Positions 26,347 through 28,164 of a stretch of DNA of 64,000 nt are shown in pieces (within the stretch, counting starts at the first letter, position 1; each line of letters begins with the position of its first letter). The notes below the pieces were generated by a model. That model saw nothing but the letters and a program-made list of their open reading frames with translations. It was not told the origin of the DNA and searched no databases. The stretch spans positions 62,001-126,000 of the forward strand of contig JACQYB010000011.1 in assembly GCA_016208415.1 (NCBI GenBank), written 5' to 3'. The position numbers and the translations under genes were made by a program. The DNA comes from Betaproteobacteria bacterium. Its GTDB lineage: Bacteria > Pseudomonadota > Gammaproteobacteria > Burkholderiales > Rhodocyclaceae.

Positions 26347-27842
26347 GCGCCGACGCCATGGCCCGCAGCATTCTCGCCGACCCGGCCCTGCGTGGTGTGG
26401 CGCCGTCGCGCGCGTGCGCCGATTCCCGCGCCATGGAGCCCGGGGACCTGTTCCTGGCCTACCCCGGCCAGCGCGCCGACGGCCGGCGCCACATCGCCGA
26501 CGCCGTGCGCCGCGGTGCCGCCGCCGTGGTGTGGGAACGCCAGGGCTACGCCTGGGACGAGACCCTTGAGGTTCCCAACGTCGCCGTCGACGGGCTGCAG
26601 AACCTGTCCGGCCACCTCGCCCACCGGGTCTTCGGTTGCCCCTCCGAGCACATGGCGGTGATCGGCGTCACCGGCACCAACGGCAAGACCACCGTCAGCC
26701 AGTGGATCGGCTCCGCCCTGGGCACCCTCGGGCGCCCTTGCGGCGTCATCGGCACGCTCGGCAGCGGCTTTCCGGGGGCGCTGGTGGCGGCGCTCAACAC
26801 CACCCCGGATGCCGTCACGGTCCATGGCCTGCTGGCCGGCTTCCGCAGCCAAGGCGCCACGGCCGCCGCCATGGAGGTGTCGTCCATCGGCCTGGACCAG
26901 GGTCGTGTAAACGGCGTGCGCTTTGCCGTGGCGGTGCTCACCAACCTCAGCCGCGACCATCTGGAGTACCACGGCAGCATGGAGGACTACGCCCGCGCCA
27001 AGGCCGGACTGTTCTCCCTGCCGGGTGTCGGCGTGGCGGTGCTGAACCTGGAAGATGCCTTCGGCCGGGAGATCGCGCGTCGGCTCAAGGGCAGCGGCGT
27101 GCGCCGCATCGGCTACACGCTCGACGGCGCTGCGACGCGTGACAGCGACGTGGACGAAATCGTGGCCGCGACGAGCGTGGAGCTGACCGCGCAGGGCCAG
27201 CGCGTGCGCGTACGCACCCCCGGCGGCGAGGCGTCCATCGAGGCCCGCCTGGTGGGCCGCTTCAACGCCGCCAACCTGCTGGCGACGCTGGCCACCCTGC
27301 TGGCCCTCGACCTTCCCCTGGAGCCGGCGGTGGCGGCGTTGCACAGGCTCACCCCGCCGCGCGGGCGCATGGACATGCAGGGCGGCGAGGGCGAACCGCT
27401 GGTGGTGGTGGACTACGCCCACACGCCCGACGCTCTGGAACAGGCACTGCGGGCGCTGCGGGAAACCGCCCGCGTGCGCGGCGGACGGCTGGTGTGCGTG
27501 TTCGGCTGCGGCGGCGACCGCGACCCGGGCAAGCGCCCGCTCATGGGCGCCGTGGCGGCGCGGCTCGCCGACCGGGTGCTGCTCACCAGCGACAACCCGC
27601 GCAGCGAGGACCCCGACGCCATCATCGACGCCATCGCCGCCGGCATGTCCGCGGCGGCGGCGCGCATCACCGACCGTGCCGGCGCCATCGCCGCGGCGGT
27701 GGGGCAGGCACAGTCCGCCGATGTGGTGCTGGTGGCGGGCAAGGGGCACGAGGACTATCAGGAAACCCACGGCCAGCGCCGCCACTTCTCCGATGCCGAG
27801 GAAGTGGCTCGTGCGCTGTCCCTGTGGCGGAGGCGCACATGA
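26343..27842 (+). CDS. murE: UDP-MurNAc-tripeptide synthetase (meso-diaminopimelate-adding)
   Basis: 499 aa Mur ligase, adds meso-DAP to UDP-MurNAc-Ala-Glu in the cytoplasm. ATP loop GTNGKTT near residue 115. The LTSDNPRSEDP segment carries the DNPR motif that marks DAP (rather than Lys) specificity. VVDYAHTPDAL and AGKGHEDYQ are further family motifs. GTG 26343 overlaps the ftsI stop; ATG 26358 is an alternative. The stop TGA overlaps an ATGA that was probably once the murF start, now separated by the element at 27844-28159. Confidence 0.96.
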   Translation: MSADAMARSILADPALRGVAPSRACADSRAMEPGDLFLAYPGQRADGRRHIADAVRRGAAAVVWERQGYAWDETLEVPNVAVDGLQNLSGHLAHRVFGCPSEHMAVIGVTGTNGKTTVSQWIGSALGTLGRPCGVIGTLGSGFPGALVAALNTTPDAVTVHGLLAGFRSQGATAAAMEVSSIGLDQGRVNGVRFAVAVLTNLSRDHLEYHGSMEDYARAKAGLFSLPGVGVAVLNLEDAFGREIARRLKGSGVRRIGYTLDGAATRDSDVDEIVAATSVELTAQGQRVRVRTPGGEASIEARLVGRFNAANLLATLATLLALDLPLEPAVAALHRLTPPRGRMDMQGGEGEPLVVVDYAHTPDALEQALRALRETARVRGGRLVCVFGCGGDRDPGKRPLMGAVAARLADRVLLTSDNPRSEDPDAIIDAIAAGMSAAAARITDRAGAIAAAVGQAQSADVVLVAGKGHEDYQETHGQRRHFSDAEEVARALSLWRRRT

Positions 27843-28164
27843 TCCTTGATTCCTCTCAAGGAAACGCCGGGCCGCCCCCAGTTTCCTTGACCCCCTCGGG
27901 GGGCGGAAACGTCACAGACGTTTCCTGGGGGCGCTCAGTTGACCGCTCGTTTTCCCTCGGGAGGCCGCATGGAGATTGAGGTCCGTGCCTTCGCCCACGC
28001 GCACCGGATGGGTGAGCCCGCTACGCGCCCGATTGCGCGCCTGCCGGGTCGTCTGGCGGCGTTGCGCATCAAAGCGGGGGGCGGCCCCGCGGCCTCGTCG
28101 CGCCTTGCCAGCCAACCCGGCAGGCCCACACTCGGGCGCGTTCAACCGAGGAATCAAGGATGAT
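27839..28164. mobile_element. MITE-like element with 12-bp terminal inverted repeats and 5-bp target duplication
   Basis: CCTTGATTCCTC (27844-27855) and GAGGAATCAAGG (28148-28159) are exact inverted repeats. ATGAT flanks both sides (27839-27843 and 28160-28164) as a 5-bp direct repeat. The element proper is 316 bp with no transposase gene. Its core (27937-28094) matches 2036-2193. An extra 81 bp (27856-27936), absent from the other copy, is a nested GC-rich palindrome. It separates murE from murF, which in related clusters overlap or nearly so. Confidence 0.82.

Follow-up and report, generated by a model that had tools for sequence, protein, structure and literature searches.

The murE/murF junction in the window (the whole stretch of 64,000 nucleotides analysed here) very probably carries a MITE of 235 bp, extended to 316 bp by a nested repeat, that inserted at the ATGATG shared by the two genes and was most likely moved in trans by an IS1380-type transposase. 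In this mechanism, the transposase would insert the MITE at ATGAT and thereby duplicate the 5-mer. The upstream copy would keep the murE stop and the downstream copy the murF ATG; because the duplicated 5-mer holds both the stop and the ATG, both reading frames would keep their signals. The right inverted end, directly before the second ATGAT, would bring an SD-like GAGG to the downstream gene. Insertions at such stop/start sites would be tolerated, so that they would accumulate at gene starts. We hold this account as a whole with good confidence.

At the junction (plus strand throughout, unless stated otherwise), the left target-site duplication ATGAT occupies 27839-27843 and contains the murE stop TGA (27840-27842), where the murE ORF ends. 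It is followed by the left terminal inverted repeat CCTTGATTCCTC (27844-27855), which was delimited by sequence and family alignment and runs on as AGTTGACCGC after the nested insert. The right terminal inverted repeat GAGGAATCAAGG (28148-28159) includes the GAGG (28148-28151), eight bases before the murF ATG (28160-28162). This ATG lies inside the right ATGAT (28160-28164), and its assignment as the murF start draws on the ATGATG of relatives. The 12-bp perfect terminal inverted repeats, the 5-bp ATGAT direct repeats, the murE stop in the left repeat and the position of the GAGG were all found exactly where an earlier note on this DNA had placed them. The terminal 12-mer has four matches in the window with at most one mismatch, against 0.18 expected from shuffles. 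A second copy at 2019-2193 (G000:C10:64033-64193) consists of TTGAA and the left end and lacks the right half. An internal promoter or terminator role was rejected: a motif scan found no promoter-like site on either strand of the element, and the lone terminator-like site (minus strand, 27867-27881) falls within the nested repeat.

The nested repeat, the start-codon excess of the family and a covarying core go beyond the earlier note. Comparison among copies delimits the nested repeat to 78 bp at 27856-27933, with CTC direct repeats on both sides (27853-27855 and 27934-27936). None of the 47 other elements in the family alignment has it, and most of the better copies in the same genome lack query positions 15-95, the stretch that holds it. 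A separate copy of the 78-bp repeat, again with CTC on both sides, is found at another locus (L027). The copy on contig C21 (L002) carries the same nested insert and is identical to the window copy at 301 of 316 positions; the composite was therefore probably copied as a single unit, and the MITE probably stayed mobile after the nesting. The C21 composite lies where a gene begins whose product, judged by eye, resembles an ABC permease. The nested repeat is itself palindromic (TCAAGGAAACGCC..CCTGGGGGCG) and has partial matches on contigs C69, C2, C64, C55 and C47, those on C69 being two close together.

The earlier note had proposed a search for other copies with these ends, and many were found, in the same genome as well as in others. 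In the own genome (3.85 Mb, 89 contigs) the 326-bp query gave 65 BLAST matches, with self and palindrome cross-matches counted. The 16-mer of TNAW plus the terminal inverted repeat occurs there 40 times exactly, among 48 sites at up to two mismatches, while the reversed-pattern control gave none. The standard length is 235 bp: among the loci examined, 67 of 116 distinct end pairs lie 234-237 bp apart. The MITE is matched in 36 of 199 genomes of the host family (own included), covering 27 of 68 genera, and at least 111 stretches were found in named records, mostly beta- and gammaproteobacterial MAGs. Record names among the matches listed include Azonexus, Dechloromonas, Zoogloea, Thiobacillus, Gallionella and Sideroxydans as well as Sulfuricella, Polaromonas, Rhodoferax, Thiodiazotropha, Sedimenticola and others. 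The elements are small and leave no room for a transposase gene, carry terminal inverted repeats with a target duplication, and are present in many copies per genome. Judged by its sequence, the feature is a MITE, belonging to a wide family in many beta- and gammaproteobacterial genera. Searches of openly licensed papers returned no earlier description of this family. In the same kind of literature, nothing was found on MITEs and translational coupling or on IS elements and start codons or SD sequences, nor, judged by title, anything on topic for MITEs and Dechloromonas.

Two end-pattern matches fall outside the usual environmental beta/gamma group, one in a Granulicella MAG (L119) and one in a MAG whose record is named Klebsiella pneumoniae (L177); these could be binning errors or chance. 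In the own genome, three copies (L015, L016 and L017) end at one shared internal hairpin point (..CCAGCCGAC), and two others (L010 and L013) have a block repeated from near that same point. The breaks and repeats in these five look like short-read assembly trouble at the palindrome.

For the analysis of flanks and starts, the own genome provided 16 copies with both ends readable. The truncated or partial copies (L014-L022, L024, L025 and L027-L030) and two found later (L308 and L309) were left out. Identical 5-bp flanks were observed in 14 of the 16, mostly ATGAT/ATCAT and TTGAA. The right end of L010 was located by a string already containing ATGAT, and its flank was also read separately. The set from other genomes comprised 79 elements (from L086-L216 without L197), after repeats of the same sequence and elements no more than 400 bp from a locus end had been skipped. 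Here WTNAW stands on both sides in 59 of 79, and the flanks are identical in 33 of 79. Of those with WTNAW on both sides, 26 of 59 have unequal 5-mers; these differ at positions 1, 3 and 5 (14, 10 and 12 differences), the absence of differences at positions 2 and 4 being fixed by the WTNAW filter itself. We read this pattern as a 5-bp duplication that would have been followed by recombination between copies. The unequal 5-mers would also be explained by a mover that is not of the IS1380 type and acts through some other mechanism that involves an overlap of WTNAW, such as a recombinase using coupling sequences. This is very unlikely, given that the flanks are identical in 14 of 16 own copies and in all six IS described below, and that in genomes rich in repeats, exchange between copies produces such unequal flanks as well.

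The candidate source of an IS1380-type transposase is a group of related insertion sequences. Within the host family, 35 of 199 genomes have a PF13701 match; the own genome yielded neither a PF13701 transposase nor a match to the IS protein query (both at E<=0.001). Six distinct IS were found with both ends (L238, L239, L240, L242, L253 and L254; 1647-1743 bp), and for several further IS loci one end only was found. Their ends (CCTATTTTCCTCAGTTGA, CCTAAATTCCTCTGTTAA, CCTAAAAATCTCAGTTGG and similar) are related, not identical, to those of the MITE. All six have identical 5-bp flanks (ATGAA, ATGAG, ATCAT, TTGAT, ATAAT and TTCAT), in line with the target duplication of 4-5 bp that characterizes IS1380 elements. 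The earlier note had called for a full transposon with the same ends. What was found agrees in the kind of 5-bp duplication and in having closely related ends; the ends are not identical, and these IS occur in other genomes only. The transposases of L238, L239 and L242 are 552, 543 and 539 aa as listed. When scanned, these three gave 53-67 bits with PF13701, above the cut-off of 34.7, and 133-156 bits with NF033539 (the NCBIfam model for IS1380), below the cut-off of 180. In the matched part, the L238 transposase is 22-26% identical to ISEcp1/ISEnca1. IS1380 members with other ends (CCCGCATTTCTCAC, CCTGAATCCGTG) were rejected as partners, as their ends do not match those of the MITE.

A palindrome at positions 77-92 is present in all six IS (imperfect in L238), in the form TCACCCRATGGGTGAG (e.g. 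TCACCYRATGGGTGRG), and it includes an ATG at 84-86, from which the transposases of L238 and L239 are listed as starting. The MITE copies have a palindrome at 77-92 as well; in the window copy this is GCACCGGATGGGTGAG at 28001-28016, identified by comparison with the IS. From the shared offset, we take the left end of the MITE to descend from an IS1380-type element of this subgroup. The transposase-start palindrome has been kept in the MITE although the MITE has no transposase, and the non-standard pairs of its helix lean to the transposase-mRNA strand (30 G-T, 10 A-C). The enzyme that mobilised the MITE was most likely a divergent DDE transposase of the IS1380 type, which would act in trans and make the 5-bp WTNAW duplication. 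Against a simple story in which the IS moves the MITE, among the 24 family genomes in which the IS was matched, 6 also contain the MITE, close to the 4.3 expected by chance; many of these 24 hold fragments.

The state of the junction before the insertion can be judged from relatives. A MurF-start query matched 117 of 121 family genomes, and the junctions of 29 relatives (L278-L306) were examined together with the own one. In 18 of the 28 relatives read by script, murF begins at an ATGATG. Reading by eye adds L283 and L278, the latter being outside the script-read set, so that the uninterrupted motif is present in at least 20 of 29. L288 and L291 also have ATGATG, but with a differently spaced junction; the remaining relatives show GTGATG or other codons at the murF start, or the script picked another start. 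MITE-like ends (up to three mismatches) were found in none of the 29 murE-murF loci of relatives, whereas the own locus and a known carrier were detected. The uninterrupted junctions are empty sites of the kind that the earlier note had proposed to look for in close relatives, and its reading of a MITE insertion at murE-murF is supported by the sequence comparison. The same note had further supposed that the insertion left the function of the operon in place. In the assembly, however, the own murF frame is broken ~330-370 bp after the start, between 28493 and 28528, and retained murF function is therefore not established. The stretch from GKTT to TRGN in the own murF is 35 nt, which is not a multiple of 3, compared with 24-30 residues in the five relatives measured. 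As murF is normally essential, the frame break is perhaps an assembly error or misassembly.

The MITE family inserts at gene starts unusually often. A start was scored when an ATG overlapped the 5-mer and opened a 60-codon frame with a codon-position GC pattern downstream but not upstream. By this test, 9 of the 16 own copies lie at start codons, in comparison to 17 of 293 WTNAW sites in the window (Fisher p 4e-7). With a slightly looser test, the same was seen in other genomes, where 28 of 79 elements are start-codon insertions against 266 of 4701 WTNAW sites (p 4e-15). The genes concerned, named by eye from their translations, include murF and genes for an ABC permease and for shikimate-dehydrogenase-like, rhomboid-like and HisA-like proteins. 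At one of the other insertions (L011) a stop/start overlap is present as at murE-murF.

It is possible, if on balance doubtful, that the MITE is real and the start excess has nothing to do with translation. The transposase would prefer WTNAW; in a genome rich in GC, ATGAT and ATGAA would be frequent forms of it in the DNA between genes, and insertions elsewhere would be lost to purifying selection. Indeed, about 17 of the 91 WTNAW sites outside called ORFs in the window lie at starts (in a slightly differently cut site set), so the excess shrinks, and the insertions L007, L008 and L013 are intergenic by ORF calls. Even against these 91 sites the own copies remain in excess (9 of 16 versus 17 of 91, p 0.003), a comparison that is only rough because the two site sets were cut differently. 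The excess also recurs in the 79 elements of other genomes, there measured against all WTNAW sites. Tolerance of the insertion at stop/start sites, with ribosomes possibly making use of the GAGG, would account for it. A strict need for GAGG is unlikely, since some lineages have CCGC instead of CCTC in the end (e.g. L199 and L206) and hence no GAGG.

An active role of the element in keeping the translational coupling of murE and murF is unlikely. According to this model, the element ends would pair in the mRNA and bring the murE stop beside the murF start, and the ribosome ending murE would melt the stem base and free the GAGG and ATG. The predicted mRNA fold does pair both element ends, which places the stop and the start at the foot of a single stem in which the GAGG would be hidden, and minimum-energy RNA folds pair the ends at murE-murF (z -6.3) and at the L011 ATGA overlap (z -4.6). 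Such end pairing, however, follows from the inverted repeats needed for transposition. The non-standard cells of the end stem are moreover balanced (18 A-C, 18 G-T), so that no selection at the RNA level is visible there.

Between the palindrome and the right end lies the core of the element, a 125-nt hairpin (28018-28142, minus strand) placed by covariation and by the score of a covariance model and modelled on the strand opposite to murF. Alignment A1 contains 48 sequences: the window copy and 47 of the 48 elements left after near-duplicate removal from the 71 found, L137 being left out. Alignment A2 is A1 without the window copy, L090 (a run of N), L095, L182 and L184, and A3 additionally leaves out L100; the orientation of L004, L026, L163 and L191 was set by hand. 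In A1, changes on both sides were found in 53 of 73 pairs, compared with 31.8 in shuffles and 28-34 in slid controls, with 324 double-change cells against 98. For the minus-strand structure (43 sequences), double changes occur in 43 of 71 pairs and 93.4% of the cells are paired, against 88.6% on the A1 strand. The core sequences are related, and neither the covariation nor the strand counts represent independent events.

The non-standard cells point to one strand. In the long helix there are 100 A-C and 28 G-T cells on the A1 strand, and the end helices, balanced at 18 each, act as an internal control. Pair by pair, A-C prevails at 21 positions and G-T at 3 (p 0.0003). Read on the other strand, the A-C cells become G-U pairs, so that more cells are paired there. 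Against this strand reading, all core helices of A1 together (6-9) hold 133 G-T and 114 A-C cells, a majority that is due to two positions of helix 7 (37 and 43 G-T cells) which are unpaired in the minus-strand structure; the long helix was chosen for the strand test after these counts were known. The 77-92 palindrome, helix 5, favours the A1 strand, with the cells given above. Predicted stability favours the core of the opposite strand over that of A1 by a mean of 14.8 kcal/mol, and does so in 46 of 47 elements. This gap is partly one of composition, as the shuffled means of the whole L141 element already differ by 4.5 kcal/mol. These observations suggest that the core has been conserved for the fold of a single strand; this strand may be RNA or ssDNA, between which the sequence data do not tell.

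The covariance model R1, built on the minus strand, scores the window core with 109.6 bits on the minus strand and 41.5 bits on the plus strand. It matches 38 of 274 genomes of the class at E<=0.001, own included, and gave no match at E<=0.1 in 27 IS-type loci, several of which overlap or are other IS1380 types. A known Rfam RNA family was rejected as identity of the core: the Rfam covariance models gave no match at E<=1 in 10 loci with clean copies, and the single weak miRNA match in the window stretch falls outside the element. In a literature search for the letters ggcaaggcgc, no bacterial-repeat paper was found, judged by titles. An action of the core on the downstream gene through the sense strand is not favoured either, the better-folding strand being opposite to the gene in 22 of 33 cases (p 0.08). 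These 33 are the start-codon insertions with one clear orientation among 92 elements, of which 58 are not at a start and 1 is ambiguous.

At the tip of the core, the apical motif GGCAAGGCG..GCAACGCCGCC (28055-28109, minus strand; pattern match G000:C10:90055-90109) forms a module shared with other palindromes and is the least explained part of the element. A gapped pattern of the motif was found in 24 of 398 genomes, with 21 sites in the own genome, and its reversed form in 1. Nine of the 24 look coding or chance by eye (three inspected with flanks); the three coding-like loci attain arm scores of 22-28, but do so only at a distance of 29-72 bases on the left. In the other 15 genomes 20 loci were inspected, and the stem continues within 6 bases outside the motif in 18 of them (arm score >=22); of the 20, L386 is weak (arm score 14) and L388 is cut by the contig end. 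Among the weaker R1 matches, judged by eye, five are palindromes whose outer arms differ greatly (L351, L352, L354, L355 and L360), while L353 looks coding and L362 is unlike the motif.

Palindromes with other ends that contain GGCAAGGCG..GCAACGCNGCC are L351, L352, L354, L355, L360, L374-L380, L382, L383, L385-L391 and L393-L395. Among them is a repeat of paired hairpins starting near TAG (e.g. L383, L393, L387 and L395).

We tentatively propose, as a real possibility that still falls short of our preferred expectation, that the core is a new module with a structured single strand, either RNA or one particular strand of ssDNA. Its fold would be under selection, and it would have been carried into several palindromic mobile elements that are unrelated to each other and spread over the Proteobacteria. 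The covariation shows a fold conserved over many genera, within elements generally assumed to require nothing but their ends. This fold might serve in regulation or protection, bind a host protein, or provide a second mode of movement.

The murE-murF insertion would offer a clear natural example of a mobile element entering an essential operon via a stop/start overlap. At such an overlap, the duplication and the ends of the element may replace what the insertion has split. It would also connect a widespread MITE family with a particular subgroup among the IS1380-type transposases.

That MITEs fold stably and are co-transcribed is already known from PMC2229807, PMC4133298 and PMC10969869; in the text covered, the last of these mentions neither IS1380 nor start codons. 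ERIC/IRU and Correia (NEMIS) elements are MITE-like repeats of 100-200 bp with stable long stem-loop transcripts, and a start-codon excess is not mentioned in the available text of the paper (PMC2229807). They have TA at their termini, in contrast to the 5-bp WTNAW flanks and different ends of the MITE described here. TIMEs, the Tn3-derived MITEs, are described in PMC4133298 as non-autonomous elements of 262 bp with a 5-6 bp duplication and conserved core stretches. The present MITE resembles them in being small and non-autonomous and in its conserved core stretches; TIMEs have 38-bp Tn3 ends, whereas the ends here are of the CCTKGAWWCCTCAGTTGA kind, as in an IS1380-type element. The Tn3 end sequence does not occur among the MITE ends. 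REP/REPIN sequences, which are associated with RAYT transposases, form single-strand hairpins with asymmetric bulges and are present in many copies. The MITE differs from them by its inverted ends and its target duplication, as for a DDE element.

IS1380-family ends begin with CC. In the openly licensed literature searched, as far as its text was available, no IS1380-derived MITE has been described. IS1247, a member of this family, is 1672 bp long with a 5-bp DR according to a table in PMC3281130. The partner IS resemble the IS1380 family (ISEcp1, IS1247) in their PF13701/NF033539-type DDE transposase, their similar length and their 5-bp duplication. They differ in transposases that score below the NCBIfam cut-off, and their WTNAW target and CCTCAGTTGA ends look like those of an IS1380 subgroup of its own.
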